Source: Helianthus annuus
Taxonomy: Eukaryota > Streptophyta > Magnoliopsida > Asterales > Asteraceae
Length of the DNA stretch: 64,000 nt
NCBI RefSeq assembly: GCF_002127325.2
Contig: NC_035448.2
Span: forward strand, 112,989,660-113,053,659
Direction of reading: 5' to 3'
The notes under the pieces were generated by a model. The model made no database searches. It saw only the letters and a program-made list of their open reading frames with translations, and was not told where the DNA came from. Positions 7,073-47,194 of this stretch are shown piece after piece; position 1 is the stretch's first letter; each line of letters begins with the position of its first letter. Position numbers and translations under genes: made by a program.

Positions 7073-7636
7073 TATTCAAGAGGAAGGCTTGAAAGAGTTT
7101 TTGGCATAAAGGTGATCATTAAGAATTGAAACTTGGGAAGTTTGAAAGTTTTGAAAAGTACCAAATTTTGGAGAACGTCAAGGTAGATTTGCAAGGGGAA
7201 GTTTTTAAGGATAGTATAAAAAAAATCATACTTTCGTAAAACCTGTTTATTGAGAGGAACGAAAAGGTTTGTTACTTTAAATAAAGCAATAGAGGTATAC
7301 TAAGTATAGTTTCACAAGAATCAAGAATAGGGAGGCTATTTTATAGGTAACGAGGTAAGTTAGGACTCAAATGTTTAAACAAGCTGGATTGCGAACGAGT
7401 TTTGTATAAAATAATACGAGTATAGAATGAACGAATGACTCTTAAAGAGTACAAGTATGTGAATAGCATAAGTGTTGGATAGATGAACGTAGTGTGTTAA
7501 GGATGAAGTCTCGTCATGAATAATCGGATATAATGCGTTTGTGAGTTGCGTGAAGTTGTATTAGGTCCAAAAGGTCTGCAACACACTGAATTTCTCATGG
7601 CACGTTTTACGAAAGTTTGGTAACATGGTGAAAACA

Positions 7637-7671
7637 CTTATATATAGGAAGTACCAGCGGCGTATCCACCA
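7637..7671 (-). other. Shared 35-nt structured core, copy in E1 internal region
   Basis: The core (contains GGATACGCCGCTGGTAC on the minus strand) matches the copies at 19766, 28181, 31545, 39530 and 46485. Its flanks ggtgaaaaca (7627-7636) and tgttttaacc (7672-7681) pair with one mismatch, and pairing extends to about 17 positions with three mismatches. See the first finding. Confidence 0.8.
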
Positions 7672-8029
7672 TGTTTTAACCACATTACGTCCGTTTCGTT
7701 ACTTGGGGTCATGTTACGTTCCGTGTCTTACCATACACAGTAGTACACTCTATGGTTCTCATACGCCTATCACTATAATCCCGTGTGCACCCGCGATTAT
7801 ACTGATTGTCGCATGATCCACATAGCTTGTACTAGTTATGTATGAATCAAGGTATACATGAATTTGAAAATAAGAATGTGTACGTAGAAGAATGTCGTAT
7901 GTAAGCATGTTTATGTTTAAGCATGTATGGAACCCACGTAAGCGAATCCCTCGGATTACGCTCGCGTATAGGTACGAATGTACGAATCATGAGTAAGGAT
8001 GAAAGTATGAGCATAAGTTTAAGTATGAA

Positions 8030-8150
8030 TACGCATGTATGTATGAGCATAAACATAAAACGTGTAAGTAGTATGTGTACAAGCAGAAGCGTAAAACGTA
8101 TAAGTAGTATGTGTATGAGTACAAGCATAAAACGTATGAACATAGGTGTA
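8030..8150. repeat. Short tandem repeat in E1
   Basis: Two to three imperfect copies of a unit of about 36-40 bases containing aaaacgt(g/a)taagtagtatgtgta. Flanking bases echo the unit (gagcataa). This is low-complexity expansion and the apparent ORFs across it are artefacts. Confidence 0.6.
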
Positions 8151-8542
8151 GGTATGAAAAATAAATATTGCGTATATGGTGTACGTTGAGACATTGTAGA
8201 GAAAAAAAAAGGTTAAGTATGTAGATACGAACGATATAAATGATGTTATCGCGAGATATCGACTAAAATGTGTATGATGATGTGCATGTATAGTTGTTTA
8301 AACAAAACGTTGAGTTTGTCGAATCAAAATTAGATTGAGCTTGGTTTGAAAGGTAGAATATAGTTTGTATATGTAAAGGAACATAAAGTACTCATTGGTC
8401 ATGCTTAACGTATTTTGTAATGATTGAAATGCTACTTTTGTTTAAAAAAAAGGAGTTCACGTATGTTAAAAATTGTCGGTCCCCATGAAGTCTCCTAGCC
8501 CACGTGTTTTGAAATTTGGATGACGAGTTAAGCGTTGTAGAG

Positions 8543-8546
<4 letters not shown>

Positions 8547-8578
<32 letters not shown>
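8547..8578. repeat. T32 homopolymer (A32 in E1 sense)
   Basis: Uninterrupted run of 32 T on the plus strand. In the sense strand of E1 it is an A32 tract. No target-site duplication or retrogene body is visible next to it. Confidence 0.9.
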
Positions 8579-8585
<7 letters not shown>

Positions 8586-9143
8586 GGGTTTGTTTCATTT
8601 GCATCAAAACATGAAAATTTGGACTTTGAAAGTTCTTGTGAAAACGTCGACCCTTAGAAAAGAAATTTAGTAAAAGAACTTAGTGATTGTTTAAAAATAA
8701 TTTTAACAAAGGATTTATTGATGTTGGAAAGAGTATTTGTAAACGGTCATATAACATCTATGAGGTCTTATAAGTAATTGAGAAAGGTTAGTTTGATTTC
8801 GATTAAGAGTGGAAGTCTCTAGTATGATGATATAATGTGAACGTGTTTCAGTTAATAAATCAGATGTGAAGTTCATGGGCAAGAGATTCATTAGACCGAT
8901 TAAATTGATAGGTAGCATTTCGTAAGGTTTGGAAATTCGTGTAGTAAAACGGTAAAGACATGATTAAGAATCTCGTGTATATGATTTGAGTGAAAATGGA
9001 TGGTAGAATAAGAAGTACGTTTGATAAACAATGTATTTTGAAATCGGTATAAGTAGGTATTTTGAATAATGATAAATGATTTAGGTATAAAACATGATCG
9101 GGTTTGCATAATAAAATATTTTGAAAGATAAGTTTTGGGTAAC

Positions 9144-9883
9144 GGTCACCTAAGTAAGGGAATCACCCCTAACTCGTTGGTGAAGTCGTTTTAAGGGAAG
9201 AGGGGTGGAGTCAATCGTCAAGGTAAGGAAGTCACTCCAATCTCGATGATACATCTCCACTAGTTGTTACAAGGAATATGAATTTAAATTATATGAAAAT
9301 CATGCGTATATAAGTGTATCGAAAAGGTTCGATATGTTGTGCGTGTGAAAAGAGAAATCAAAAGTAAACTCGAGGTTGAAAGATTGCATCGTATAAAATG
9401 AACAATAGAAACACATGTTTGACCAAAGTTTGGAGTGTTCCAAAACGGAACTTTGACTAACCAAAGTGGTCGAAAAGTCTTTTGAATTTGAGGAGCATGT
9501 TTTGGCCTAATAGGTAAAATACTCTCGCCGACAAGTCGGTTAACGGTATTTACCCTTCCGGTTACTACATGTCCCAAATCAATCGAAATTTCGAGACTTG
9601 GCGGGATTTATGAAAAAAAATGCCAAGGAGTGGAACTAGTCGACAAGGTGCGGGTTTCACCCCTAACTTGACGATTTCGTATCCTAAGTGTGGTTGGTAC
9701 TCGCCGGGTCAAAATTTAATTTCGACGTGTTGACGAGGGTCCACTAGAACTTGAAATTTGAGATTTACCATTAAGATGTGGATTTCACTCCTAGCTTAAT
9801 CGCGATATCTCGTGTAAAAAAAAAAGAATAGGTAGATTGAGAGTCGTTCACCAAATTGTGGGTTTCACGCCTATTTTGGTGAA
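9144..9883 (-). repeat. Five dispersed hairpins with conserved loop in E1
   Basis: Units at about 9146-9183, 9215-9248, 9640-9674, 9770-9800 and 9847-9883. Each has a loop like gggtTTCACcCCTA and arms that differ between units but pair within each: TTCACCAAA/TTTGGTGAA, ATTAAG/CTTAAT, TCGaCAAG/CTTGaCGA, and two weaker ones. Conserved loop plus co-varying arms suggests selection on structure. Confidence 0.65.
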
Positions 9884-9967
9884 TTCGTCTCATTTGTACA
9901 ATATGAGTGTTGTCGGATTTAGAATAATCGAGTAAAATGCATGAGGGAAGTGTATGTCGAAGGAGAT

Positions 9968-10150
9968 ACACAAACAAGTATAAACACATAAGAAAGCATA
10001 TCAAGGATGATACTTAAATAATGAAATAAAACAAGTATTAACACATAGAGAAATATGTCAAGAATAACACATAAAGAATCGAACAACGAAACAAGTGTTA
10101 ACACATAATAAAACAAGCATTAATGCGTAAGAATAACATGTCGAATATTA
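9968..10150. repeat. Imperfect tandem repeats next to E1 PBS
   Basis: Three to four degenerate copies of a unit of about 55-65 bases containing acaagtattaacacata and aagaataacac. Frames across it are artefacts of the repeat. Confidence 0.55.
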
Positions 10151-10296
10151 CACATGAGTAACATACATGTTTAAAAGAGCATAAATAAGTAACAAATAAA
10201 GTATCATGTAGTAGTCCAAGCAAAGCATACGAATAAGGTTCTAAAACTATAGACTAGGCTAAAGCATTCCTACTTTTCCTAATTCCCTATAGTTAT

Positions 10297-10309
10297 GGCT
10301 CTGATACCA
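10297..10309 (-). other. PBS of E1 (initiator-Met tRNA)
   Basis: Minus strand TGGTATCAGAGCC, three bases inside the LTR end. It is complementary to the 3' end of plant initiator-Met tRNA. Confidence 0.9.
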
Positions 10310-10312
10310 ATC

Positions 10313-12538
10313 TGTCACACCCCAACCAATGGCGGAAACATCGGGATGAGACGAAGTGTGAAGATTGCTAGAGACATCATAACGCTATTTGTGACAATAT
10401 TTAGAAAATCCAAATTTCATTTCATTTCATAACTTCAAATAGTCAACGTTACAGGAAATTCAAATACGACAAGTTTAACAAAACAACATGATAACATATC
10501 AAAATTTTGATACAACATTTTAAACCCTAATGTCTATATGTGTATCTAGGCATCAACGCTACTTCATTTCATAGCATCATCGTCCTCAACCTGTAACATG
10601 TTTAAAATAAAGTTCAATGCAAAAGCAAAGGCGAGTATACAAGTTTGATACGTACATAGCAAAAGATAAGTTTGAACAATTCCTCATAGCAAGCATGAGA
10701 TTCAAGATAAACATTTAAACATGGCATGTGTCTAACATATCAAACCAAGAAAACGCAACTTGCTCATGACATAACCAAAGTTTCAGTAGAGGCGGGTCGT
10801 TAATCCTATAGCGCTACATATGTCAAGGTTTGGCTCGTACGAAGTTAATGATAAGTTCAACACATAAGAATCACCCAAATTTAAAGTATCAAGTCATCAC
10901 ATATACAAGCATGTTATAGGAATGTTCATGTGTTTAGACAAAAGTTCATGTGTAAGTTTCAATAGGTAAACATGTTACACCCCAAAAGTAGTAAAAGTAA
11001 AAAGGGGAAAAGTACGAGTATACTCACAAAGTTTGCATATGTTTTCCGATTATCCAATTGTTGACGAGTAGAGATTTAGAGTCCGAATGTATAAGGGTTA
11101 AGGTTCAAGTATGTTTAGAGTCGAGATTCGGTGTTCAAAACAACATAAAAATAAGATATGAGAATAACATGGAAAATAATCATTTACTACATATGATGCT
11201 TGTTCTTGACACTAGGAAACTCGAAGGAGTTTAGATGTTTTCATGGAACAAGGTTCCATTAGAATCGTGACAAGTTATCATAGTCTAGGATGATGTAATC
11301 TAGTACCCCGACATATGAACACTAGTTCATCATCAAAGATTCGATTATTCGATTAATATATTTAGGTTATATAATATATGTCCAATAGTTCAAGCATGAG
11401 GTAGAAGATTAAAATCTTCATTTTGGTACCTCTAAATGTCATAGAAGTCATGTAGGAGGTAGGAAGATCAAGTCTTCCATTTAGGCACCTCTATGTGTTC
11501 ACCACTACACTTGATGTAAAAAAAAAACAACCAAGGAGGGTCATGAACATACAATAAAGAATAAGAAATATACATACTAACTAAGAGAAATCATCAAATC
11601 ATGTGAGGATTGTATGTTTGGACAACCCAAGTAGTTCCATAATCACTCATGTATCAAAGACAAAGTTTGACATGACTTGTGGGTTAAAAACCCTAAACAA
11701 AACACCAAGTTTATGAGGTTTAATCCTCTGATTTTAAATGTCTCAACCTTGTTTTTAAGCTTAACCAACCATGGGATAATTTGTAAGCATTAGGACATAG
11801 GTATGAGATGTGTTAGACACAAGTTGCATAGGTTTAAACAAGTTTTTGATGAACATAAAAACAAACAGAAAGTTTATGGACTATTTCGGGGCATTTCCAG
11901 GTCTGATTTCTCCAAGGAGAAGTCTAGGAATCGAACCCCATGATTATACAAGCAAGTAGGAAAAAGAATCGAGTGAATCGGATAAGAATTGAGTGAGTTA
12001 TGCTCATTTTCGTGAAGGGGTATCAATCTACTCGAACCCTTGCTTTCAGCTACGGTTTGGTGGATGTTTTGTGAGTTTTTAGGGTTGCAAAAGTGGTAGG
12101 GAGGCTGGTTATAAGTGGTATTTATAGGGGGAAGGATTAGGGTTTCAATGGGTTGGGCTTTGGAAGTGTTTAGAAGGGGTTACACCTTGAAACTAGCCCA
12201 CAAAACCCAACTATATGGGGCTGAATTTTGCTGAATTGGGCTGCCATATTTCTTTATTTTTTTTTATTTTTTTAAAACATTATAATGAGTAATTTTGTTA
12301 ATTAAGTTGTGTAATAATATGCAACAATGTTTCCCCTAACTTGTAACAAGGTAAAATATGAAATAAAACATGATTTAACTAGGTAAAAAGTGTAATGTAC
12401 AAGTTTTATTTACGAAGCAAGTTCCGTATTTTATAACGATTACGATGAAAGAATGGTTATAAGAACACAAGATTTCCAAAGATAGAATTTCACGTAAGGT
12501 TTCTAAATGTAGGATGTTTGAAAACGCAGGGCGTTACA
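10313..12538 (-). repeat. E1 5' LTR
   Basis: Same sequence as 4814-7038 with few changes. It is the promoter-bearing LTR because the PBS adjoins it. TATAAATA lies on the minus strand at 12119-12126. A possible 3' splice site, ACATGTTACAG|GTTG, lies on the minus strand near 10594. Confidence 0.92.
12119..12126 (-). promoter_or_regulatory. TATA box of E1 5' LTR
   Basis: Minus-strand TATAAATA. The LTR continues about 1.8 kb downstream to the PBS. Called by motif and position. Confidence 0.55.
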
Positions 12539-12543
12539 TAAAC

Positions 12544-12663: not shown

Positions 12664-13405
12664 GAGGAGATAGTTTTTCATACAGAAAATCCAAAAACAT
12701 TAAAAAATGTAAAAATACAAAAACAATAGAAATTTCAAAATGTAAAAAACAATAGAAACCCAAAAAGAGTTTGTGTAAAAAGAGGAAATGATAGCACATC
12801 AGCTAGACTGTCACGGTACGCTAAAGATTTGTAAAGATAAAAGCGTTAAACAGTCTCACTGATGATATGCCAGTATATTTTTACACATTCAGTAGATTGA
12901 TTTCGAGATAAAAACCTAAATATCAATAACTTTCTTATTTTGTGGGGAACACCTTTCGGATATATAGGTAACCCCTGAAATCTTGTTTGAAAGATTGCCT
13001 GTTTCTGAGACACGAGGTCTATATACTTAGTGATATCTGGGGTATTATACCTGGACTTCTGATATTGCGGAAGCAATGGCCTAGTACTCGTATAATACTT
13101 TATGCGCTTTAAATAAAAGCTTTCCCTCAGCATAAAAACTGATAAATATCGAAAGATACAAATCAAGTGCTATTGTAAAGAAGATCCCTAAGTGGAACAC
13201 ACCTAAAGTCGAGCCATCATCTCTCTGTCTGAACGAAAGTTCTAACCTGAGCTCTCATGGTCTCGCACTACCCAGAGAACAAATGTCATTATAGTATATT
13301 CACTTGTAAGACTGAATATAGGGAATCTGGATACGAGAGTATATTCTGAGGTGGGACACGCAAATAAGTTAAGTACTTAAAACACTAAATCACATATCTT
13401 GAAAC
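12664..13405 (+). other. E6 3' non-coding region, first part
   Basis: No ORF. From about 12846 it aligns with the reverse complement of about 48490-49070 in E5, over most of its length. This is the conserved 3' region between pol and the PPT in these copia elements. E2 is inserted at its end. Confidence 0.75.
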
Positions 13406-14488
13406 TGTGACACCTGTGTCACCGCGAGCACCAAACAAATTCCAAGTCAATGAAATATTGTGTTTCATACTTGGGATTTGTATAAACATATGTGTATCTT
13501 TTGCACATATCAATTCTTGTTCAATTCCGAGCTTTAAATCGCTTTCTGGAAAGTTATACGTGCACTGGTGCGTAAACATAATCAGTTTAGTGCGACAAAC
13601 ACTCCGGAATAGTGAAATAGGCTTAACATACCTTAAATGACCTTTACATAACTTAGAAATAAGTTTTGGAAGGTTTGGAATGGCAAAAACAAGTTTATTC
13701 GATCGCAGGGACTATTTGCGTCAAACTGCGAAACTATACCGATTCGTAAGGTAACGAACAGTCCGGAATTTGATCATAAGTTAAACATACCATATATAAC
13801 CTAAACATGGCTTAGAAATAAGCTTTGATAGGTTCGGTGTGCGAAAACATGCTTATATGATCTTACAAGGACTAAAAGTGTCAAAAACGGCGTATGTTTG
13901 CATTTCCGCATATCTTATGTTCTGACCACATCTGGACATCCAAAATTTGTGTACACACTAAAATATTTTTATTTTAGTGATCGGCATGCAAAAATCCCAT
14001 TCGTCGCTTAATTTGGTTCGTTTTCGCGTCCGTTTGAGTTCCGTCGTAATTTAACGAACAACGCGACCGTACGACCAAATGAGCCGACATCCGAGAGTGT
14101 TCCAAGCATATTTTGAGTCCTCTAAACTTTATTGACCTTGTAGAGCCTTGAAAATGGCTTAACGGGGGTCAAAAAGGCCTGAAATGGACTCGAATGCATG
14201 TAGGGACTAAAGCTGCCAAAATTGAAAGTTTGCTGATCTGGGGAGCTCAGGCGGGGCGCGTAAGCCCCTCCCCATTTCTTATGCGGGCCGCCTCAGATGC
14301 CCAGCGACCAGAAAGTTGTTTTTAGCAATCTGTTGCTAATTCAGGGGCTGTTTATGCAAATTCTTTGTGTGGTAACCAAGTTACCACCTCTGCAAGGCTT
14401 TGCACCTGCTCCTAACACTTGTATGGATGAGATTTCATGCTTGGTGGCCAAACAAACACATGGAATGATCTTGTTGATCACCAACAAC

Positions 14489-14496
14489 TATAAATA
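14489..14496 (+). promoter_or_regulatory. TATA box of E2 5' LTR
   Basis: TATAAATA followed by a CT-rich segment (cattctcttctctcat). The E3 LTR has the same layout in the other orientation, with a matching downstream stretch up to gatagcaaggac. Copy in the 3' LTR at 21229-21236. Confidence 0.65.
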
Positions 14497-14616
14497 CCCA
14501 TCCATTTCTCATTGTTCTTTGCTCATTTCTCATTCTCTTCTCTCATATCTGCTTTGGGGCTCTCTCAACTGAGTTTGGGACTTGTCTTCTTTGTAGAAAA
14601 GATAGCAAGGACTTGG

Positions 14617-16700
14617 GTGAGCCTTCTTTCATTCTTTTATTGCTTTCTAGTTTAAAAAGTCAAACAAGTGTTTGACTTTCAGTTTGACCAGTCTTTGGTC
14701 AACGCAAAGTTTGGTTAAACTTTGCAACATGATTGTAATCACGTTGGTTATAATCCTTAGTGATTATACCCGCTGATTACCACGTTAACTAGGTGTAGTG
14801 TCAAGTCAAAGATTCGGTCGAAATGCGTTTTAGCACGCATTTTGCAACGGAACTACTTTAGGGTATCAAAACACTTTGTTTTGATACCAAATCAGTAGGT
14901 TAAACATGTTTTGACATGTTTAACTCGACACTATTAGTTTAGTGCTTATTTAGGGTCGCAAGGTAAGCGGTCTAAACAACCGCTTAGCCTTTCGAACCCG
15001 ACCCGTTTGGTCGATCTTTAGGATCCGACCAAGTTTAGTTAGTGATCATTGTTGCATAGGGAATAACCACTGAGGTTATACCTTATGATCACATAGGATT
15101 GGTTAATCGTATGCTAGTTAGCTTGTATGCCCATAGGAAATGACCAAAATACCCTTTTGAAGCTTAAATCCGTATTTTGACTATGTGAACATATTTTTGA
15201 CATATAATCTGATTTAGTAACATGTTTAGGGATAATTGGGCATGTAAGACTTGACATAGCACATAGTTAACCATCCAAACATAGTTTTACGTAAACAACG
15301 CATTATAGTGGCTTATACTATCATAATGGGTCGAAACGGGTCAAAAGCACTTAGGTAGACTTCCAAATCAGAATGTTAGGTCTATTAAATCATGCCATAT
15401 GAGTTGCAATACTCATTTGATTTATAGAACTTCATTCTATCCTATCTTCCTATTTAGGATCCGATTGTTTAACATAGTGATCCATACTAGGTGCCACTTG
15501 ATTCCTTGATTTCCCGAGCTTTGTTAGGACACTTAATCAAGGATACTTGCAATCTCAATTGAGTACATAGTCCCCTCCTTTACTGTTTTCAATTGTTTTG
15601 GGGTGAAACATATATGCCTATCTGTTATTTTCCTGATTTTAAGCTATATGATTATACATGCTTAGTACATATACTTTTGATAAATTAAACGATTACCCAT
15701 GGTTTAAACATTGATTTTCCAAAACTTATAAAACTATTTATTGGATTGTACCCATTTTATACATTCACCCAGCCGATTGGTAGTATGATATAGCGCTATA
15801 GGACTAGACACCCCATTCCTGTTGTATGGAATGTCAGAAACCAAATTTTAACCAAATAGAAATTGCCTTTCTGGTATTTCTATAGTCTCCAAAGTGTAGT
15901 TTGATACACTAAGGCTTGACTGAATACTAAATCACACTCTTTTTGTATATGTTGATATACTACGAAAGTACAGTTTGATGTACTCTCAAATGTGATCTAC
16001 CAAAGTATATTTTGATATACTAAGTACAAAATCCAACATATGTTTTAACATACTACTTTGTTAATTACCAAAAGCATAGTTTGATATGCTACTGTTTACC
16101 AAAATATAATTTGATATACTACCAACCTTGTTATTTTAAACCAAAGTATATTTTGATATACTATCCAAAGCATAGTTTGATATGCTACTGTTTACTGAAG
16201 TATAGTTTGATATACTACCTACTTTGTTATTTCATAAACTAAAGTATAATTTGATATACTACCAAAGGCATAGTTGATATGCTATTTTTAAATTAAAGCA
16301 TAGTTGACATGCTTATTTCAAAACCAAAGTATAATTTGATATACTACCAATACTTTTATTCTTAAACTAAAGTATACTTGAGATATACTACCTAATCTAT
16401 TATTTTAATTACTAAAGTATATTTTGATATACTACCTATTAACTATTTCAAAACTAAAGTATACTTTGTTATACTATTTATACAAACTTTCCAAAACCAA
16501 AGTATATTTTGTATATACTATAAACCCTTTTCCAAAACGACACGTTTTCAGAAACAAAACTTTTTACATTGGATTCATGGCTATTTTGAAAACATAAAAC
16601 CTTTTCCTCCTTTATCCAAAGCCATGAATCTAATACATAAAATCCTATGTTACTCACAGGCATTTTTATGCTGACGTACCTATTTTCATATATGTTTCAG
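14617..16700 (+). other. Putative leader intron within E2 5' LTR
   Basis: Donor-like GTGAGC follows gatagcaaggacttgg at 14617. Acceptor-like TATATGTTTCAG|GTACTG ends at 16700. Equivalent pairs exist in E3 and E4, with the acceptor sequence notably conserved. Splicing would remove the palindrome array and shorten the leader by about 2.1 kb. This is inference; no transcript is available. Confidence 0.4.
15889..16530 (+). repeat. Array of about 18 short palindromes, E2 5' LTR
   Basis: Unit AAAG TATA (G/T)TTTGA TATA CT ACC, about 22-45 bases apart. Arms vary together: AGTGTA/TACACT, AGTACA/TGTACT, AGCATA/TATGCT, AGTATA/TATACT, with the GTTTGA spacer kept. The second copy is at 22629-23270. Confidence 0.85.
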
Positions 16701-16941
16701 GTACTGCTATGTGATGATTGTTGATGCATGCTACACATAGGATTGACATGTGCCTTAGCGACTTTAAAACTGAGAAACAATTATTTGTATTTATCTGAAT
16801 TGTACCAAAACATTGAGTTTAATAATTCAATACAACGAAACTATTTTGATCCATGGTTGTGAAACAATGATTCTGTTACAACACTCCCCGACGTTTCTGC
16901 CCCGATTTGTTGTTTTACGTGGTCGGGGTGTGACAGAAAAG

Positions 16942-16954
16942 TTGTATCAGAGCC
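16942..16954 (+). other. PBS of E2
   Basis: TTGTATCAGAGCC, one mismatch from the initiator-Met PBS TGGTATCAGAGCC, seven bases inside the LTR. Confidence 0.8.
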
Positions 16955-17189
16955 AATGGTTATAGGGAATTAGGTTATTAGTAATGCTTTGACCTAGACT
17001 ATAACCTTCCTAGGACCCTAACACAAGTTATCTTGTGTTTAGTCTTAAAACAACACACTTCACCTATCCTTAGGTGATTAACAAAAACAAAACACAATTC
17101 ATTCTCTCGAGTCAAAATTTTTCAAAACATCACAAGAAGTCATCTATCCTTATATGATTTGTTATTAGGCTTTTAAACCTTTGGTGTTT

Positions 17190-17415
17190 TCAAAATCTTG
17201 TCAAAGTTTGGGTCTAAATAATGTGAACACGTGCAAACTGGAAGGTTGAATGCCTGTACCCTGAGTTTTCTGTCTAAGGCTAGAGTGTTCGTACAAATCC
17301 GCAGTATCAGACCAGTCACTCTTACCTGGGAACTCTTGGGGTGAGTGTTCACTTATAGGCGAGCATGTCTTCAGTGATACATTATATTGACCCATTTACT
17401 TTGATTTGTCACAGT
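17190..17415 (+). other. Conserved leader of E2 (PBS to gag)
   Basis: About 200 bases (for example gaacacgtgcaaactggaag, acaaatccgcagtatcagac, cttataggcgagcatgtctt) recur as reverse complement at 38505-38732 (E3) and 45450-45665 (E4), more alike than the sequence around them. A packaging or dimerisation signal is plausible, as this is the usual place for one. Confidence 0.7.
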
Positions 17416-17552
17416 GTCGTTTGTTTGTTTTAGGTAACGAACAAATGGTCACAATCCTTATGCCTTGTCGATATTCTTAACATCTAGTTTTGAATATCCA
17501 ATAACATCTCACTTGTTTTTCCCTCATGTTTCTTTCCTTGCTCTTTTAGAAT

Positions 17553-19439: not shown

Positions 19440-19572
19440 AGTTATAAAGATCCCTTAAATGGTCTATTTAAAGAGATTATACGACGATCTAGATAAGGAG
19501 ATCATGTGTTGATCTAGTTAAAAAGATCGTTCGTTGATTTAATTAAAAAGATCTTTTTGTGATCTAGTCAAG
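19440..19572 (+). repeat. GATCT hairpin repeats in E2 3' region
   Basis: Successive units such as GATCTagataagGAGATC and TGATCTagttaaaAAGATC, about 30 bases apart, each able to form a short hairpin. E4 has a counterpart with different arms at 43280-43440. Confidence 0.6.
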
Positions 19573-23674: not shown

Positions 23675-23679
23675 AGAAA

Positions 23680-36807: not shown

Positions 36808-38380
36808 GACATGAGTTTAACAGGTTTCTCCCCATGAATGTTAAGATCTCACCAGTCGATAGCGGTATACGGACCAACTTCTCAAAACATACCACCTCAG
36901 CATGGTACTTTGATAACCAATCCATTCCTACTATAATATCGAAGCTCCCGAGTTGCATCGGTGTGAGGTCGATAGGGAAAAGATGGTTATTGAGATTCAA
37001 CTGGCAATTTCGAAGAACAGAGTCGAGGACAACAGGTTCGCCACTAGCTACTTCTACTGTCAAGGGCTTTCCTAGTTTTGTTCTAGTCATCGAAAGCAAA
37101 GGCTCAAATGCTAAGGACACAAAACTCTTATCGGCACCCGAATCAAATAGAACAGAAGCAGGATGGTTGTTAACAAGGAACGTACCGTTCACCACTTCGT
37201 TATCCGCACGCGCCTCATTGGCATTCAAGTTAAAAGCTCTACCACGAGCCGGTGCCTGATTTGCATTTGCCAACCTCGGGCAATTGTTCCTGTAGTGGGT
37301 CAGATCCCCACAGTTGAAACATGAACCAGGCGGAAAGTGAGGTCGTGCAGGATTCTGGGCAGGGTTTTGTGCAGCTGGGTTCAGATTAGGAACAAAATGG
37401 CAGGTGTTCGCAAGATGACCAGACTTGCCACAATTCGTGCAGATACGACATTGCATCTGTGGCTGGTGGTGGCTATTACATCTGTTACACAGAGGTGCAT
37501 TACCAGCATACTGCCTTTTGGCAGCAGGTTGTGCAACCTGATTCTGCGCTGCCTGATTAGGAGCAGCCTGGTTTGTCTGAGCGGTAACAGCAAAGTTCTT
37601 GGAAGCCTTACGCTTCCTCGATTTCTTTGAAGACTCAGCAGTCTTCTTGCCCTTGTTATCCTTGGCGTCATCAGACTGTTTCTGCTTCTTGTCACCCTTT
37701 CTGTGGAGTTTACCCTTCTTGATTTGAGATTCAGTAAGGGTAGCAGCTAGCTCAATGGCCTGTCGGACGGTAGTAGGGTGACTGCCAGTGACAATATCCT
37801 GAACAGGATCTGGCAAACCGTCTATGTACTTCTCAATAGCCTTATCCAAAGGCGTGACCATTGTCGGACAGAGCAAGCTTAACTCCTCATATCTGACAGT
37901 GTAAGCCCGGTGTTCACCACTGACTTGCTTCAGATCCTTGAACTCATCTTCGAGTGCCCTCTGCTCATGTCGAGGACAGAATTCTCTCATCATGAGAGCC
38001 CTGAGTTCCTCCCAAGTCTGACCCAAAGCAACATCTGCACCTCTATCTCTCATTACCCCATTCCACCAGGTAAGGGCCCTCTTTTGAAATACACTAGAAG
38101 CAAACTCGACTTTACGATTGTTCGGACACTGAACATGGCGGGATGTGCTCTCAAGACTCTCAAACCACTGGAGAAGCCCTGTTGCTCCTTCAGTACCACT
38201 AAACTTGAGTGGTTTAGCCGAGTTAAACTGTTTAAAGTTGCACGGAGCAGGTGCATTAACATTGTTATTGATGGCTTGGTTTATTTGAGTTATGAGACCA
38301 GGTAGCATAGCAGCCATCTGCTGTGCTATAATAGCTGCCAGTTCGGCATCAGGTTGAGGAACGTTACGTCGAGGAGGCAT
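36737..38380 (-). CDS. gag: E3 Gag-protease, frame open
   Basis: 547 codons from ATG at 38380 ([13 protein letters not shown]). A longer frame from 38452 is possible, but the MPPRR start matches E2. The capsid domain lies at about residues 65-190 ([16 protein letters not shown]). A basic linker [11 protein letters not shown] follows. CCHC knuckles are [14 protein letters not shown] and [14 protein letters not shown]. The aspartic protease region is at about residues 405-500, with active-site [13 protein letters not shown] and [13 protein letters not shown]. The frame then runs out of phase with RT near 36740, ending at 36737. Gag forms the particle and packages RNA. The gene itself has no stop before protease, in contrast to pol. 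Whether the frame change is a recoding site or a mutation is unclear; I favour mutation. Confidence 0.9.
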
Positions 38381-38964
38381 TCTAAAAGAGGAAACATGAG
38401 AGAAAACGAGTGAGATGATGTGATGAAAATGAGATAACAATAAAATCGACAAAAAGCAAGGAAGGTGGTCATTTGTTTGTTACCACAAAGCAAACAAACA
38501 ACACACAGTGACAAATCAAAGTAAATGAGTCATAATAATGTATCACCGAAGACATGCTCGCCTATAAGTGAACACTCACCCCAAGAGTTCCCAGGTAAGA
38601 GTGACTGGTCCGATACTTCGGATTTGTACGAACACTCTAGCCTTAGACAGAAAACTCAGGGTACAGGCATTCACTCTTCCAGTTTGCACGTGTTCACATT
38701 ATTTAGACCCAAAACTTTGACAAGATTTTGAAAAATTTGGAAGGCACACGGTCAAAAGAAATCATCTAAAGATAGATGATTGATTTCAAAATCGTTTTGG
38801 AAATTGTGTTCAAGTTTTGGTAATCACCTAAGGATAGGTGACGGGTATTGTTTTAAAATCTAAACACAAGTAAACTTGTGTTAGGGTCCTAAAGTTATAG
38901 TCTAGGTCAAAGCATTACTAATAACCTAGTTCCCTATAACCATTGGCTCTGATACCAACTCTTC
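38381..38964 (-). other. E3 leader with PBS and conserved block
   Basis: PBS TGGTATCAGAGCC (minus strand, 38945-38957) seven bases from the LTR. The conserved leader at 38505-38732 matches E2 and E4. A paired atcatct...agatgat hairpin lies at 38760-38780. No ORF. Confidence 0.8.
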
Positions 38965-39529
38965 TGTCACACCCCGGCCGCGGTAAAACAACGAAAGCCG
39001 CGGCGGAAACGCCGGGGAGGTGAGTAGCGACAGAATTATTGTTTCAACAACCATGGCAAATAAAGTTTTGTATTATTAAAATTTAAGTTACATTGTCTTG
39101 AGTTCCAACTAAAACTATAGAATAACTGTCTTTTAAGTCACTAAGGCCCGAGTCCGCCTAAGTGAAGCACAAACACCCTTATGCATTAGCACCTGAAACA
39201 CATGTAAAAATAGGTACGTCAGCATAAAAATGCCTGTGAGATACATAGGTTTTGTTTATGCAGATTCATGACTTGTATTTGAAAGAAGTGTTTAATAAAA
39301 TGATGTCATGAATCTTGTAAAATGTTTTTCTTTGTAAAATCATGTGAAAATCGATATGAAAATCAAATGATAATGAATGAACAATGCATGGTTAAATAAA
39401 TAATCAAGTGAAAATGATTTTGTATAAAAATGTGTAATTTGTAAGACAATGTCATGTTTTTGTATAAAATGTTTCATGTTTTGTCCAAGTGGTTTATATA
39501 ACGCAACGATGTATAATATGATAAAAGCA

Positions 39530-39564
39530 CTTATATATAGGAAGTACCAGCGGCGTATCCACCA
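39530..39564 (-). other. Shared 35-nt structured core, E3 5' LTR
   Basis: Core identical to that in the 3' LTR. Arms pair over at least 14 positions (atatgataaaagca with tgcttttatcatat), longer than in the 3' LTR copy, where one base differs. Confidence 0.85.
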
Positions 39565-40139
39565 TGCTTTTATCATATAACACATAGCCTCGTTACATAA
39601 GTCACTTATCAAGAACCAACCAAAATGTCTTGTTCCATGTCAAAATGTGTATGTGTAAACCGTGTACAATGTCATGTGTATCATGTATAACCAATGAAAT
39701 GCACAGCAAGTAGGAAATCATCTACTTAACTATGTAATGATGTCTAATGTGAAAACAAATGTCATGTATGGTGAATAACTAGAAGTTACTCAACCCCATA
39801 GAAAATGTACAAAACATGTTTTTGAATAAACCTAAGTTTAAATCAAATGTTATGCTTTGCAGAAAAACAATGCTTTATGATTACAAACATTTATGCAGTA
39901 ATGTTAATCGCATACATTCAAGCCTTGAGACTGTGGCGACAAACCCTTAAATGAATTAAAGGTTCATCTAAAGTTATGTTGTCGGATTCTGTCATCCCCA
40001 ACTTCCAAACAAACCCAGGAAGTCGGAAACGGGAGTTGTCAATTCCTATGGTACCATTACATAAGTCCGAGCGGCGTAGCTAATGTTAATGAATGTATTA
40101 TTGTCCCGATTGAACATACCAAATGTCATAACCAATGTA

Positions 40140-40400
40140 GCATGTGAAAGCCATGTACTAGGAATGCTAAGTAAACATGCCTAGTAGAAATGTTCATGTA
40201 AAAACAATGTGCTAGCATGCTTAGTAAACATACATAGCAGAAATGTCATGTAAAACAATGTGTTCCATATGCTAAGTAAACATATGCAACAAATGTGAAA
40301 TAAATCAATGTGCTAGCATGCTTAACATACATAGCAAAACACAATGGAAAACATGTACTATAAGTGTACTAGGTGAAATTAGCATGTTTATGTCATAAAA
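40140..40400 (-). repeat. Hairpin-like tandem repeats in E3 5' LTR
   Basis: Units about 55-60 bases apart with co-varying arms: ACTAGGAATG/CATGCCTAGT, CATATG/CATATG and a weaker GCTAGCATG/CATACATAGC. This block lies within the stretch deleted from the 3' LTR. Confidence 0.55.
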
Positions 40401-41569
40401 GCATGAAATGCACAAAAGTAACATGTATGTACATGTGTATCACCCCAAAACATTTGAAAACGGTAAAAGAGGGGAACTATGTACTCACTTGGGATTGCTA
40501 ATTAGTCTTGAGAATAAGACCAATTTAAGCTCCAGGGGTTACGGAATCAACCGGCACCTAGTATAGGTAACTATGTTAATAAACGGCCCTAAAACGGGAG
40601 ATAGGATAGAATGAGGTTCTATAAATCAAATGAGTAACTGAACTCATATGGTATGATTTAATAGTCCCAACATTCTGATTAGAAAGCCTACCTAAGTGCT
40701 TTTGACCCGTTTTGACACATTATGGTAACATAAGTCACTATAAGGCGTCATTAGCGTAAAACTATGTTCGGATGGTTAACTATGTGCTATGCCAAGTCTT
40801 ACATGCCCAATAATCCCTAAACATGTTACTAAATCAGATTACATGTCAAAAATATGTTCACATAATCAAAATACGGATTTTAGCTTCAAAAGGGCATTTT
40901 GGTCATTTCCTATGGGCATACAAGCTAACTAGCAAATGACTAACCAATCCTAGGTGATCATGGGGTATAACCTCAGTGGTTATTCCCTAAGTAATTATGA
41001 TCACTAACTAAGCTTGGTCGGATCCTAAAGATCGACCAAACGGGTCGGGTTCGGAAGTATAAGCGGTTGTTTAGACCGCTTACCTTACCACCCTAAACAA
41101 GCACAAACTAATAGTGTCGAGTTAGACATGTCAAAACATGTCCAACCTACTGATTTGGTATCAAAACAAAGTGTTTTGATACCCTAAAGTAGTTCCGAGG
41201 CAAAATGCGTGCTAAAACGCATTTTGACCGAAACTTTGACTCGACACTACAACTAGCTAACGTGGTAATCAGATGCTATAATCACGAAGGATTATAACTA
41301 TCGTGATCACAATCACGTTTCAAAGTTCAATTGAACTTTGACTTGACCAATTGATGGTCAAAACCGAAAGTCAAACCGTTGTCCAAATGTTTGACTTTCT
41401 GCACTACATAAGGAAAAAGCCATAAAAAGAAATGAAAGAATGCTCACTAAGGGTCCTTGCTATCTTTTCTACAAGAAGACAAAGTTCCAAATGCTTGAGA
41501 GAGAGCTCCAAAGCAGATGTGAAGAGAGAATGAGAAGAAATGAGCAAAGAATGAAGGAGTTTGGATGGC

Positions 41570-41577
41570 TATTTATA
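41570..41577 (-). promoter_or_regulatory. TATA box of E3 5' LTR
   Basis: TATAAATA on the minus strand, followed in sense by ccatccaaactccttcattc. It has the same arrangement as in E2. Confidence 0.65.
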
Positions 41578-42669
41578 CTTGTGGTGAGTTAATAGGATCA
41601 TCACAAGTGTTTTGCTTGGTCATTAAGCATTAATCCTAGCCATACATGTGGTACAAGCTGATTAGAAGCCTTGGTGAACACACAAACTTGCCCACCACAC
41701 AAAGAATTAACCATAACAGCCCCTGAATTATCAAACAGTTAGCAAAATATGATTTCTGGTCACTGGGCATCCTTTACGGTTCGCAAGGGGACCCTTACAG
41801 TCCGTAAGGACCTTGCTGCAGATCAGCAAGTTTCCCAAAATGACAGATTTGGCCCCTGAGCTTGTTTCAACGCGTATTGGCACTTCTAACACCCGTCAAG
41901 CCCATTTTTAAGCTTCATAAAGAAGTTAAAGTATAGGGAACATGAAACATGCTCAAAAATATGTCGGATGTCGGTTCGTTTGGCCGTACGGTCGCGTTGT
42001 TCGGCTAATTACGACGGAAATCGTAACGAGCGCGAAAATGATCCAAATTGCGAAACGAATGGAATTTTTACATGCCGATCACTAAAATAAAAATATTTTA
42101 GTGTGTACAAAAATTTTGGATGTCCAGATGTGTCCAGAACGTAAGATATGCGCGAAAATGCAAACTTACGCCGTTTTTGACACTTTTAGTCCCTGTAAGA
42201 TCATGTAAGCATGTTTTCGCACACCGAACCTATCAAAGCTTATTTCTAAGCCATGTTTAGGTTATATATGGTATGTTTAACTTATGATCAAGTTCCGGAC
42301 TATACGTTGCCCTACGAAAAGGCATACTTTTGCAAGTTGACGCAAATAGTCCCTGAGAGCGAATAAACTTGTTTTTGCCATACCAAAGCCTTTAAAACTT
42401 ATTTCTAAGTTATGTAAAGGTTATTTAAGGTATGTTAAGTTTATGATGATGTTCCGGAGTGTTTGTCGCGTTAAACTGATCGTGTTAACGCATCAGTTCG
42501 CGTATAACTTTCCAGAAAGCGATATAGAGTTCAAAATCGATCAAAAATCAACACGGGCACAAAACCAAACATAAATGACAAACATTGGGATCAAAACACA
42601 CTGTTTTATTAATATTGTATTGTTCAGAGTTTGTAAAAATGATATTACAAGCACAGATGTCACATGTTA

Positions 42670-42885
42670 AGCCTATTTAACTGTTCCGGAATGTTTGTTG
42701 CATTAAACTGGTTATATTTACGCATTAGTGCGCGTATAACCTTCCAGAAAGCGATTTGAAGCCCGAAATTGAACAAGAGTTGATATGTGTAATTGATACA
42801 CATGTTTATACAAATCCCAAGTATGAAACACAATATGTTATTGGTTTGGTATTTGTTTGATGGTAGAAGTGACACAGATGTCACA
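42670..42885 (-). repeat. E4 3' LTR, second part
   Basis: Continues 27612-30979 on the other side of E3 and ends gtgacacagatgtcaca, the LTR terminal palindrome. It matches 56446-56660 of the other LTR. Confidence 0.9.
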
Positions 42886-43279
42886 GTATCCCCTACTTCA
42901 GGAAATTTCATCCCGAAATTTATCTTAGAGGAAACTTGTGAGAGCTTGAAATATGAAGTTGAAAAGATCGAACAATACTGGTTAGAGTCCTGAACTTCTA
43001 GTAACTTTAAATAACATCATGCTTGAAATGTGAGAGGGACACTTATATATAAGTATATAAAGTGTTATTGGTGCGTTCACCGTACCTCTATTACATTGTT
43101 CATATTTTGTTACGGTTGCCACTATTGGTTCTTACACATAATAGTCTTATTGTGGTTTCCGTGCACTGAAATTCGTAATTATGTATGCATCCATAATTAC
43201 GTAATTCCTTGCATAGTCACGTAGTGCATCTTATAATGTGTAGGGGAAGGAAACAATGAACGAGCCAGTGATGATTGTG

Positions 43280-43440
43280 CTTAGACCACCATAGGGTCTT
43301 TTAATTAAATCAATGAATGATTTAAATAGACTACCAAGGAGTCTGTTCAGCTATATCACCACATGTCATTCCTAACCAGATTCTGAATAAATCTTTAGAC
43401 TTAGATCCCTCAAAGGGTCTCTTTTGAATCATGGAATGGT
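43280..43440 (-). repeat. Short hairpin units in E4 3' region
   Basis: AGACCaccataGGGTCT, AGACTaccaaggAGTCT and AGATCCctcaaaGGGTCT occur in succession. They correspond in place to the GATCT units of E2 but have different arms. Confidence 0.55.
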
Positions 43441-44099
43441 ACTATATAATCCAATGGTCTTTAACGATTACGTAGAAGCCCATTAAGGATTTATGGTAGT
43501 ACCTTTGAATATCCTACTATGAATCACTCATATGAAGATATGGAAGATTTTACGAGGATTTGGCTAACGAATATCCAGAGTATTCAAAAGCACAAAATGC
43601 ATAAAAGAAAACACAAAATGCATAAACACATAATCACATAATTGTTTAACTTGATTTTAAATTTGTTATCATTTTGTTAATTTGTTCTGTTAATTGAGCA
43701 CATGAATTTAAAGCACACTAGGAATCCATTTCGTGGATTTTATTTGTTACTTTAAACATTATCAAGAATCTAACTATGAAGATAGAATGATCTTAAAGAG
43801 AAAATCCGATTTCGATTATAAGGAACCGAAATGTTCGAATTAAAGTACACAAGGAACCCAATTAAGGACTCTGATTTGGATGATAATCATCCACAAGGGT
43901 CTAATTTTGGAGATAAAAAGATCCCATATGGATTTTAGAAGTTGAAGATGTTTTGAAACCTTGCACTGGATGTGCTTAAGTCAAAATATGAAGTAAAAAA
44001 AATGCTTATGAAGTTGAGATGCTAGATATGCCAAGGCGACATATGAAGCGGATTTTGAAGGTTAAGTCAATGTATGAAGAAAATATTTTGAAAACTATA

Positions 44100-44395
44100 C
44101 ATGGGGTTCTAAATGTGTTCAATGTTTTTGGAAACCTTATATATAATACTTTTGAAATCATATAGTAGGTGTATTAGGTAGGTATATTTATAAAAATGTT
44201 TAAAATCATGCGAGATGAGTTTTGAAATTATGTATAAGGTTTTTGAAAACATGTATGATGCTTTTGAAATCATGCACTTGATATAAGTAACTATACTGTA
44301 TTAATAATATTTTGAAATCATGAAGGTTGTTTTTGAAAACATAGACAATGTTTTTGAAATCATGGAGGTTGTTTTGAAAACTTATGCTATGCATG
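44100..44395. repeat. Degenerate tgaaatcatg/tgaaaaca repeats
   Basis: Multiple imperfect copies of ttttgaaatcatg and tttttgaaaacat in about 300 bases. A 62-codon minus-strand frame (FKNNLHDFKN) is a by-product of the repeat. Confidence 0.65.
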
Positions 44396-44796
44396 TTGAA
44401 AAATCAGAACGTAATGGGTATGAGATTTGAAAATACCCTTAGTTATCTAACCAAGGATTTAAAGGCACAGATGTGCAAGAAGCACGATTACTCAAAATTT
44501 TGCTTTATTTCTTGTACTTCGTCTCCTAGAATGAAACGAGTACTTAAAATTTCGAGGAAATCATGCGCGATCACTTGAAAAGGGAGAATCACAAGAGTAG
44601 TTTGTAAGGAGCATAGCTCCTTGATGTAGGTATCATAGGGAAATGCCATACACCCATATAACTACATTTGTATATCAGAATTGCGAACAACGACTTTTAT
44701 TTATGAACAAAACATATTGTTTCACAATATAAGAAAACAAAATAAACAAAGGCATAAGACAACAACATTTTTTTTTTCCTTTGCTCGGCCAAATGC

Positions 44797-45324
44797 TCAT
44801 CCAAGGGTTGGATTTGCATTGACAATCTTTGGGCATTTGTTCCTGAAATGGCTCGTTTCGCCACAGTTGTAGCACGATCCACGTGGAAAACGAGCTTGGA
44901 TAGGGTTGGCTTGTGGTTGACTTGGACCACCTTGGCTTGGGTCGATTCGACAAGTACTTGCCAGGTGACTAATTCGCCCACATGATACACACACATGACA
45001 CTGTAGGTGAGCTTGGTGATGCCCGTTACATTTGTCGCATAGTGGTGCCGTTCCCTTGTATTGCTTCTTAGCAGGTGGTGTTGCCTTTTGGCTAGGTCCT
45101 GCTGGATTAGGTGCAACTGCTGCGGGTTTCTTTGAAGCCTTACGCTTCCTTGATTTTGGTGCAGGCTTGACTTCTACTTTCCTCAGTGACTCTTGAGTGG
45201 CTCCATTTTTGAGGCGAGACATGGCAATACCTAAATCCACGGACTTCAGAATTACTTCGCCTATTTGCTGGGCAAGTTTGGCTGCTTGCTCGGACATTTG
45301 ACCGTTGCTGAGGTAAAGAGACAT
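44797..45324 (-). CDS. gag: E4 truncated Gag (nucleocapsid only)
   Basis: 175 codons, ATG at 45324 to stop at 44797. The capsid domain seen in E2 and E3 is missing. The frame starts MSLYLSNGQMSEQ, passes a basic linker ([12 protein letters not shown]) and carries the CCHC knuckles CVSCGRISHLASTC and CYNCGETSHFRNKC, plus the upstream cluster CDKCNGHHQAHLQC. It ends at the point where protease would begin. It may bind RNA but could not assemble a particle alone. It looks like an internal deletion that kept the reading frame open, so either recent or under selection. I favour recent. Confidence 0.85.
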   Translation of the reverse strand: MSLYLSNGQMSEQAAKLAQQIGEVILKSVDLGIAMSRLKNGATQESLRKVEVKPAPKSRKRKASKKPAAVAPNPAGPSQKATPPAKKQYKGTAPLCDKCNGHHQAHLQCHVCVSCGRISHLASTCRIDPSQGGPSQPQANPIQARFPRGSCYNCGETSHFRNKCPKIVNANPTLG

Positions 45325-45902
45325 TCTACAAGAAAATGAAAGACATAGGAAGCAACAAATGAAATGTTATCGGATAAGCAAAACAGAAAGGCAATGCATA
45401 CGAATTGCGATCATATGTTTGTTACATAAGGCAAACAAATGAGATGGTGACAAATCAAAACAAACGGGTCATAATAATGTATCGCTGAAGACATGCTTGC
45501 CTATAAGTGAACACTCACCCCAAGAGTTCCCAGTAAGAGTGACTGGTCCGATACTGCGGATTTGTACGAACATTCTAGCCTTAGACAGAAAACTTAGAGT
45601 ACAGGCATTCACCCTTCCAGTTTGCACGTGTTCACATTATAAGACCCAAACTTTGACGAGATTTGAAAACTTAGAGGGTTCAAAACCTAGTAATCAATCA
45701 TCCTAGAACAGATAATTAGTTTTCAAAGCGGTTTTGAAATTTATGTTCTTGTTGTGGTTGTCGCCTAAGGATAGGTGACGGTATTGTTTTATGACTAAAC
45801 GCAAGTAAACTCGCGTTAGGGTCCTAAGAAGGTTATAGACTAGGTCAAAGCATTACTGATAACCTAATTCCCTATAACCATGGGCTCTGACACCAACTTT
45901 TC
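45325..45902 (-). other. E4 leader with conserved block and mutated PBS
   Basis: Conserved leader at 45450-45665, matching E2 and E3. The PBS at 45883-45895 reads TGGTGTCAGAGCC, one change from the Met site. No ORF of interest. Confidence 0.8.
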
Positions 45903-47194
45903 TGTCACACCCCGGCCACGTAAAACAACAAAACGTGGTGGAATCGTCGGGGAGTGTTGTAACAGAATCATTGTTTCATAACACATGGAAAATTGAAATT
46001 TTGTTTTATTGGATTAAATGTATTACAACGTCTTAACAACAAAGAAAAATATAACATAGTTAACTAGTCTTGCATCTTTTAATGTCACTAAGGCCTCGTC
46101 CAATCCTACGTGAGCATGCATCAATATCATCATCAAATATCATCAACTATTGTACCTGAAACACATGTGAAAATACATCAGCATAAAAATGCCGGCGAGT
46201 ACATAGGTTTTGTGAAAATAGGATTCATGACTTAGGTTTAAGAAAATGTTTAATGAAAACTTGTCATGAATCCAGTTTAAGTGTTTGCTTTTATAAAATG
46301 TTTGAAAAGTGATAGTAAGGTAGATGATATGTAAAAGAGAAATGAAAGGTTAAATGAATAACCAAGTGAAAATGAGTTTGCATAAAATAAGTTGTTTGTA
46401 AAATAATGTCTTGTGAAAAATATGTTATATGTCTAAACTGAAAATGATTTAAACAACGCTGGGATATGTAATATCATACAAACACTTATATATAGGAAGT
46501 ACCAGCGGCGTATCCACCATGCTTGTATCATATTACACACGCCTCGTTACTTAAATCACCTTACCCAACCAAACCACCAATGTATAAATGTCGATGTTTA
46601 AACCAATTGCCAATTGTATTGAATAACATGTCAAATGTTTATGTCAAAATGTAAATCATGTAATGTATAACCAATATCAAACATGTTTATGTGTCAAATG
46701 TAAATCATGTAATGTACTAAGTATGCCACAAAGGACATACATAGAAAAAACATAATGAAATCATGTACAAATAGTGTACTAGTGAACATAGCAAGTATAT
46801 GATATGAAAACACGAAAAGCACGAAAGTAAAAAGTAGGCACATGTGTTTCACCCCAAAATGTTTGAAAAACAGTAAAAGATGGGTCTATGTACTCACTTG
46901 AGATTGCTCAATGGACTTTAGATAGCCACCAAGCAAGCTAGAAGATCACGGATTCAAACGACACCTAATATAGGTATCTACATTAATAAACGGACCTATC
47001 GGAAGATCAGGTAGTATGAGGGTTCGTAAACCAAATAAGTGTGGGAACTTATGTAATATGGTTTAACAAAGCCTACATACTAAAACGAAACTTTTCTGAG
47101 GTGCTTTTGACCCGTTACGACCCGTTTAGGTAGCTTATGCTACTTTAATGCGTCGTTCGCGTAAAACGTGTTCGGACCGCCTAACTAGTCCTAT
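45903..47194 (-). repeat. E4 5' LTR, first part
   Basis: Matches 27612-29419 of the other LTR with a deletion of about 520 bases at 46712 (equal to about 28411-28930, aatgt microhomology). It has a nested stem at its tip (CCACGT/ACGTGG) and the shared core at 46485. E5 inserted at cctat. Confidence 0.9.
46485..46519 (-). other. Shared 35-nt structured core, E4 5' LTR
   Basis: Core identical to 28181-28215. The right arm tgcttgtatcatattaca pairs better with its left arm than in the 3' LTR copy. Confidence 0.8.

Follow-up and report, generated by a model that had tools for sequence, protein, structure and literature searches.

A hairpin shared by four Ty3-type elements of sunflower

The 64,000-nucleotide (nt) stretch of the Helianthus annuus genome analyzed here (hereinafter the window; contig NC_035448.2, positions 112,989,660 to 113,053,659, forward strand) contains four Ty3-type long terminal repeat (LTR) retroelements, denoted E1 to E4, which were delineated by self-comparison, Pfam searches with 10 of the 14 open reading frames (ORFs) of at least 150 amino acids (aa) and reading of the element boundaries. 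Each of the four carries a hairpin composed of a ~45-bp stem, in which the sequence is free to change and pairing is kept, and a nearly invariant apical domain, which we interpret as a structured RNA that acts in cis in chromoviruses of the Tekay type (Table 1).

The LTRs of these elements start with TGTGACA or TGTAACG and end with TGTGACA, the primer site resembles TTGGTATCAGAGCC, which we take to correspond to the initiator Met, and the polypurine tract is preceded by a word like AAATTTCGGGACGAAATTT. The host elements are probably chromoviruses of the Tekay clade, a name that we assume for E1-E4 from the long LTRs, the primer site and the tract. E3 has matches to gag, protease (PR), reverse transcriptase (RT), RNase H (RH) and integrase (INT), with in-frame stops, and is the only element of the window that shows the Ty3 order gag-PR-RT-RH-INT (Retrotrans_gag, RVP_2, RVT_1, RT_RNaseH and Integrase_H2C2, with rve below the cut-off). 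Its tail (33893-34288) matches a Tf2-1-like SH3 domain with 80.7 bits and the Chromo domain with an E-value of 0.0009 and 19.5 bits vs the cut-off of 25.1. A fragment of the E3 pol shares 87% identity with a protein from Helianthus annuus, and no relative of this pol was found in viral_contigs. E1, E2 and E4 lack a recognizable pol and retain the hairpin all the same. Both E3 (~30980-42664) and a copia-type element (47195-54801) interrupt E4; the latter is nested in the E4 5′ LTR and has 453-nt LTRs that are ~99% alike. Tekay is reported to be the largest clade in sunflower, with more than 15,000 copies (PMC7730604).

A 17-mer of the hairpin core occurs six times in the window (0.04 expected by chance), with no further copy at up to three mismatches. 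The block common to the six copies spans 39 nt, CATGGTGGATACGCCGCTGGTAC(T/C)TCCTATATATAAGTG in the element sense, and is identical in five of them, with a single change (T to C) in E2. These are the six copies that the sequence-only reading had listed, at the same positions, and the element boundaries bear out both its assignment of the E3/E4 copies to the LTRs and of the E1/E2 copies to the 3′ internal region and its claim of a uniform orientation (sense in 6/6); its E2 change stands as well, and its core of 35 nt has to be extended to 39. The decayed copy that it placed near 43030-43096 also exists and is homologous to the internal copy of E2; its arms no longer pair better than shuffles, with a score of 41.0 vs 47.5 for the best of 500. 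A covariance-model scan of the window gave 52 matches up to an E-value of 10, mostly weak; once the decayed copy and the six used for training are set aside, the top matches were these hairpins read on the opposite strand. Two other candidates were rejected as further copies, namely 59561-59658, a strong but unrelated palindrome that lacks the core and lies close to short tandem repeats (59860-60251), and 16539-16657, another hairpin without the core, the LTR twin of which (23279-23397) scores equally.

Table 1. Retroelements, hairpins and associated features of the window (positions in the window; bits, covariance-model score)
Feature	Positions	Strand	Remarks
E1	4807..12538	-	LTRs ~4807-7041, 10310-12538; no internal ORF of at least 150 aa
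E2	13404..23679	+	LTRs 13404-16939, ~20147-23679; gag alone recognized
E3	30977..42664	-	LTRs ~30977-33855 and 38966-42664
E4	27612..56660	-	only a weak zinc-knuckle match, below the Pfam cut-off
E1 hairpin	7602..7717	-	3′ internal, ~600 nt before 3′ LTR; core 7635-7673; 97.7 bits
E2 hairpin	19720..19836	+	3′ internal, ~345 nt before 3′ LTR; core 19764-19802; 101.9 bits
E4 3′ LTR hairpin	28145..28261	-	core 28179-28217; 125.0 bits
E3 3′ LTR hairpin	31509..31625	-	core 31543-31581; 126.8 bits
E3 5′ LTR hairpin	39494..39610	-	within predicted leader intron; core 39528-39566; 129.0 bits; z -4.86
E4 5′ LTR hairpin	46449..46565	-	core 46483-46521; 129.2 bits
Decayed hairpin	43009..43128	-	internal part of E4, immediately before the 3′ LTR; 27.5 bits
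Predicted leader intron, E3 5′ LTR	39193..41083	-	around hairpin; donor AAG/GTAAGCGGT, acceptor TTTCAG/GT
Second inverted repeat, E3 LTR	39264-39313
Second inverted repeat, E4 LTR	46223-46271
Second inverted repeat, E2 LTRs	16573-16629, 23313-23369

Selection on arm pairing

In the window copies, the arms pair across ~45 nt on each side of the core, so that an earlier proposal of ~10-nt pairing arms was right on the pairing and too short in extent. When the left and right arms were compared by anchored alignment over ~60 nt, the four E3/E4 copies showed 36-42 Watson-Crick and 7-13 G-U pairs over ~56-60 nt (42/7 in the E3 5′ copy and 38/13 in the E4 5′ copy), and the respective numbers were 38/4 for E1 and 38/7 for E2; the outer stem of E1 is weak, with a pairing score of 53.0 vs 49.0 for the best of 500 shuffles. 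Single-sequence folding against shuffles, which covered five window copies (all except the E3 3′ copy), yielded z-scores of -4.86 (E3 5′), -3.15 (E4 5′), -2.27 (E2) and -1.35 (the other E4 copy); the E1 fold alone is not better than shuffles (z -0.84, 37/200), a weak point of the window set. In the alignment of the six copies, 90.7% of the 214 cells pair, a level that was reached by 0/500 shuffles, and 9 of the 36 pairs are changed on both sides, likewise vs 0/500 shuffles and vs 0-6 pairs in slid controls; the number of further pair types is ordinary (175/500 shuffles). Because the arms of E3 and E4 are recognizably related, the earlier statement that the arms differ fully between families is overstated for this pair.

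The genome to which the window belongs (3.0 Gb) contains 22,201 exact matches to the 17-mer and 34,261 matches to the 39-mer at up to three mismatches, and the reversed controls gave 0 in both searches. The 95 stretches that were cut from one chromosome, most of them around the first listed places, comprise together with the window 108 core copies, of which 66 are identical, 36 have one change, 5 have two changes and one has an indel; the indel copy was dropped, leaving 107 copies for analysis. Nearly all sampled copies were picked via the exact 17-mer, and accordingly conservation inside the 17-mer reflects the choice of the sample, whereas conservation outside it does not. Clustering of the inner arms at 85% identity produced 23 representative hairpins, among them one (L117) that has no matching right arm, is probably truncated and was retained in the counts.

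For these representatives, the kth letter to the left of the core was compared with the kth letter to the right, with no alignment involved. Standard pairs occupy 268 of the 322 cells in register (83.2%) vs 28.7-56.0% when one arm is shifted by 1-6 positions, and swapping of right arms among families (2000 trials) gave a mean of 229 and a maximum of 250 paired cells. Changes on both sides affect 12 of the 14 pairs (42 cells); a +1 slide touches 12 pairs as well (29 cells), so it is the percentage of paired cells, together with the arm swaps, that carries the argument. The innermost collar of the loop also co-varies, from CAT/GTG to CGT/GCG in two hairpins of one sampled stretch (L091) and from U.G to U-A in a large family, with a mismatch instead in a few copies. 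The ratio of G-U pairs to A-C mismatches is 39:8 in register vs 447:304 summed across the 12 slides (p 0.001). In 22/23 representatives, the sense strand has a lower fold than the antisense strand, and this still applies to 17/23 (p 0.0003) when the apical domain is replaced by a loop of 33 A. Given the G-U excess and the lower sense fold, a sense-strand RNA is likelier to be the selected form than a DNA cruciform.

Thus, selection maintains the pairing of the arms and is biased toward the sense strand. The register-specific pairing and the arm swaps over 23 dissimilar hairpins, together with the sense-strand bias, agree with the structured RNA that the sequence-only reading proposed and make it nearly certain; a chance palindrome as the origin of the hairpin is excluded.

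The apical domain

The apical domain comprises ~33 nearly invariant nucleotides, GGUGGAUACGCCGCUGGUACYUCCUAUAUAUAA, closed by a collar of C-G, A-U and U.G, and tens of thousands of copies retain it. At each position beyond the 17-mer by which the copies were picked, the majority letter is present in 60-74 of 74 copies; over the same 74 copies, the mean majority frequency is 0.99 in the core vs 0.62-0.64 in the arm columns, and 50 of the 74 share an identical 39-mer.

Folding models tentatively suggest a small hairpin inside the loop, GGUG(GAUA)CGCC, which appears in 19/23 minimum-energy folds with a mean probability of only 0.51. The inner helix GGTGG-A-TAC/GTA-CYTCC that had been drawn from the sequence lies within ~2 kcal/mol of this preferred fold and is thus retained as one of several near-equal folds, not as the favored one. 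Variants that seem to have been passed on, recognized as two same-strand copies at LTR spacing with matching arms, appear to favor the small inner hairpin, although this evidence is one-sided: a change of G13 to A, which would convert U6.G13 into U6-A13, is found in such pairs of four arm families, in two more arm families without such a pair and, as the same G to A, in the decayed E4 copy (GGUG AACG CACC). In a broader comparison, a partner was sought on the same strand 4-14 kb away for 100 places per search, the first ones listed, which come from the first contigs only and are non-independent; it was present for 43/100 canonical, 21/100 G13-changed, 8/100 G16-changed and 10/100 C12-changed copies (genome totals of the changed forms: 609 for G13, 920 for G16 and 644 for C12). 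Changes of G13 are thus passed on more than those of G16 (p 0.015) or C12 (p 0.049), which would agree with a U.G to U-A change in GGUG/CGCC. A C12 to T change (G.U) should be tolerable under the same pairing, yet is not clearly so and adds no support. No complement of the loop of at least 9 nt, AT-only words excluded, is common to all four elements, that is, no internal kissing partner was found; the 8-nt palindrome UAUAUAUA in the loop could have a role in dimerization.

Positions in the elements and a predicted leader intron

The location of the hairpin was surveyed in 60 regions with ~1 kb on either side. A polypurine-tract motif lies 346-668 nt downstream of the hairpin in 16 regions and an LTR-end motif 575-640 nt downstream in 37 (3 of the 60 have an additional LTR-end motif upstream), and neither landmark is within reach in the remaining 7. 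The landmark is downstream on the hairpin's own strand in 53/53 resolved regions, with opposite-strand landmarks in 0/60. Among the seven regions without a landmark, L091 has five hairpins within 1.1 kb between the primer binding site (PBS) and a part homologous to gag, and the stretch that follows shows homology to pol, L044 has hairpins downstream of gag homology, and the other five best match E3/E4 LTR sequence. The positions therefore vary, yet in every resolved sampled case the hairpin is untranslated and in the sense orientation; elements with and without recognizable pol share it, and it can be repeated in tandem. L091 (1002-2073), L041, L044 and L155 have such arrays, in which two to five hairpins follow one another and possess individual arms.

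A putative leader intron and a start site are predicted from sequence motifs in the long LTRs, with the intron inside 38966-42664 and 13404-16939. The donor, AAG/GTAAGCGGT in E2 and E3 and AGG/GTAAGCGAT in E4, is conserved in 3/4 LTRs, and the acceptor, TTTCAG/GT or TTACAG/GT, in 4/4. Because donor and acceptor bracket the E3/E4 LTR hairpins, these lie inside the predicted intron, whereas the 3′ internal hairpins do not. In E3, the word TATAAATA occurs at ~41577, which is ~2 kb upstream of the hairpin in the LTR. It is also present at the position of the E2 LTR that aligns with this site and in the E1 LTR; the exact word is absent from the E4 LTR.

Several other repeats accompany the hairpin. 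A second inverted repeat (ATTCATGRC ... GYCATGAAT), common to E2, E3 and E4, is located downstream of the hairpin position in the LTR. The E2 LTRs (16071-16521 and 22811-23278) contain tandem palindrome-like units (CCAAAGTATANTTTGATATACTACC) near the site that the hairpin occupies in E3/E4, and a conserved inverted repeat is present directly upstream of the internal hairpin in E2 (19611-19697, around GGAATTACGTAATTATGGATGCATACGTAATTATGGAATTC) and in E4 (43148-43230).

Searches for relatives

In Rfam 15, no match to the window reached the gathering threshold, and the best sub-threshold score of the E3 hairpin was 22.6 bits vs a cut-off of 72. Outside this genome, viral_contigs gave 1 match to the exact 17-mer and genome_contigs gave 31, and each of these 32 shares just 20-26 of the 39 core letters; ~30 chance matches are expected in genome_contigs from its size. 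A chimeric query of five core frames retrieved nine chance reading frames with the core peptide (E-values of 0.0004-2.9), four of them in H. annuus entries, two in H. anomalus, three in environmental entries and none in other named genera, which weakly suggests a narrow range, nine frames being no test of absence. Four 16-letter forms of the core do not occur in the searchable literature, outside of which most subscription papers lie, and the titles and abstract openings retrieved for structured elements of plant Ty3/Tekay elements do not describe the motif. Little is known of RNA signals that act in cis in plant Ty3 elements, and the same titles and abstract openings surfaced none for this group.

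A candidate cis-acting tag of genomic RNA

A stem in which pairing alone is kept, a near-fixed apical domain, three untranslated addresses (LTR, PBS-gag and 3′ internal), tandem arrays and sharing by elements with and without pol are jointly what would be expected of a docking site on the genomic RNA. We propose, with a probability of about one half, that the hairpin is a cis-acting tag of the unspliced genomic RNA that serves nuclear export and/or packaging. The apical domain would be bound by a protein, either the element's Gag or a host RNA-binding or export factor, that would recognize the genomic RNA in its unspliced form and allow it to be exported and/or packaged; placement within the predicted intron would, in the LTR-type families, limit the hairpin at the 5′ end to unspliced RNA, and non-autonomous elements would keep the hairpin so as to be handled by the machinery of autonomous ones. 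By analogy, export, as by the constitutive transport element (CTE), and packaging, as for BARE2 RNA in BARE1 particles, would both fit.

Several observations weigh against this interpretation. With respect to the structure, the cells changed on both sides number 29 vs 26 for a +1 slide when 14 representatives are used, so that the pairing percentage (77.6% in register vs 32-51% slid) carries the case at that level; a gapped-alignment version of the G-U test with 13 representatives gave 75:30 vs 1175:691 for swapped arms (p 0.095), and in E1 alone the G-U to A-C ratio is 4:4. With respect to the function, a packaging signal in the 3′ internal region would tag spliced RNA as well, and a near-invariant domain of 33 nt exceeds most protein-binding loops and is also expected of a catalytic RNA. 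In addition, of two sets of highly expressed sunflower elements, one is reported to lack Tekay and the other to have it under-represented (PMC7730604, PMC9784723).

The size of the core, with arms that vary and still pair, and the tandem arrays of up to five units could reflect a new self-cleaving ribozyme, in which the apical domain would be the catalytic core on a variable stem and would process the element RNA. Such an undescribed class of catalytic RNA, cutting or ligating element RNA in over 30,000 chromovirus copies, some of them in tandem arrays, appears rather unlikely: cleavage at one or five sites in the PBS-gag interval, or in the LTR, would sever the genomic RNA, no Rfam family was matched at the gathering threshold, the hammerhead core letters occur in 0/108 copies, and a monomer or circular-RNA layout was not seen in the sampled regions. 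Ribozymes are reportedly known from retroelements, with hammerheads in retrozymes. An element for RNA stability or 3′-end protection, acting like the element for nuclear expression (ENE) through a different fold, is unlikely. The 3′ internal site in E1, E2 and 16/60 sampled regions does recall the spacer between ORF and LTR that holds the ENE of Evade (PMC12501189), but an ENE needs paired U-rich internal loops, by which a poly(A) tract is clamped, and the LTR and PBS-gag sites are not close to the 3′ end of the coding RNA. Those same 3′ internal copies, shortly before the 3′ LTR, render translation control by shunting or an internal ribosome entry site (IRES)-like mechanism quite improbable, despite the presence of the hairpin in the long leader before gag in the LTR-type families and in L091.

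The core terminates in a TATA-like TATATATAAG, as might be expected of a DNA-level element such as a promoter/TATA region, a cruciform or a protein-binding site. Position and RNA-strand bias disfavor a promoter role, in that a separate TATAAATA lies ~2 kb upstream of the E3 LTR hairpin, internal copies cannot promote genomic RNA and the sense-strand G-U excess points to RNA; we consider a DNA-level function very improbable. The same holds for a host small-RNA precursor or small-RNA target. Among the Rfam families below the threshold, microRNA (miRNA) precursors indeed match the E3 hairpin best, because of the long stem, but in miRNA precursors an arm is conserved and the loop varies, the reverse of the pattern seen here, and the score is far below the cut-off. 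Finally, the near identity of the core in all samples would also follow if gene conversion, template switching or insertion had recently spread one functionless segment, and gene conversion of a segment including the arms had been named at the outset as the finding that would overturn the structured RNA; the family-specific arms diverge and still pair in register and the innermost collar co-varies, so this explanation is refuted by the covariation and retains hardly any credence.

If the hairpin is a tag of genomic RNA, it would make export or packaging open to testing in a retrotransposon clade that probably outnumbers all others in a 3-Gb crop genome and would bear on how autonomous elements recognize non-autonomous ones; with ~34,000 natural copies, its function could be read from the variants that survive transposition.

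Comparison with known systems

Hammerhead ribozymes have a catalytic core of CUGANGA and GAAA. The hairpin resembles the hammerheads of retrozymes in having a conserved RNA core within plant LTR-type elements, but these hammerhead letters are absent (0/108 copies, and no Rfam match at gathering), and the small circular-RNA layout of retrozymes was not seen in the sampled regions. The CTE of retroviruses, an RNA bound by the export receptor NXF1:NXT1, is located between the last ORF and the 3′ LTR, and the E1 and E2 hairpins are in the matching place before the 3′ LTR. Like the hairpin, the CTE of type-D retroviruses is a cis-acting stem-loop in a retroelement RNA, ~130 nt in size and near the 3′ end (PMC4330390). 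The CTE has two-fold symmetry and consists of two equal lobes, whereas the sunflower hairpin, judging from its predicted folds, has one asymmetric apical domain. Retroviral packaging signals, as a kind, occur in unspliced and not in spliced RNA, and through binding to Gag they bring the RNA into particles; of the sunflower hairpins, those of the E3/E4 LTRs are inside the predicted intron and the 3′ internal ones are outside it.

The ENE of the plant LTR retrotransposon Evade (Copia93) is likewise a fold-back RNA in an untranslated spacer, described as promoting mobility (PMC12501189). Unlike the ENE, the sunflower hairpin is devoid of U-rich tracts (a run of five U is found in the core in 0/108 copies and in both 45-nt arms in 0/108), also occupies LTR and PBS-gag sites and belongs to Ty3 rather than copia elements. 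BARE1 and its parasite BARE2 provide a parallel of autonomous and parasitic elements with common cis signals for packaging/dimerization, BARE2 RNA having been reported in BARE1 particles (PMC3735527); these are members of the copia superfamily, and the likeness considered here is the sharing of signals. Taken together, LTR retroelements are already known to have structured elements that act in cis, and the sunflower hairpin appears to add one that is new in sequence, fold and scale.

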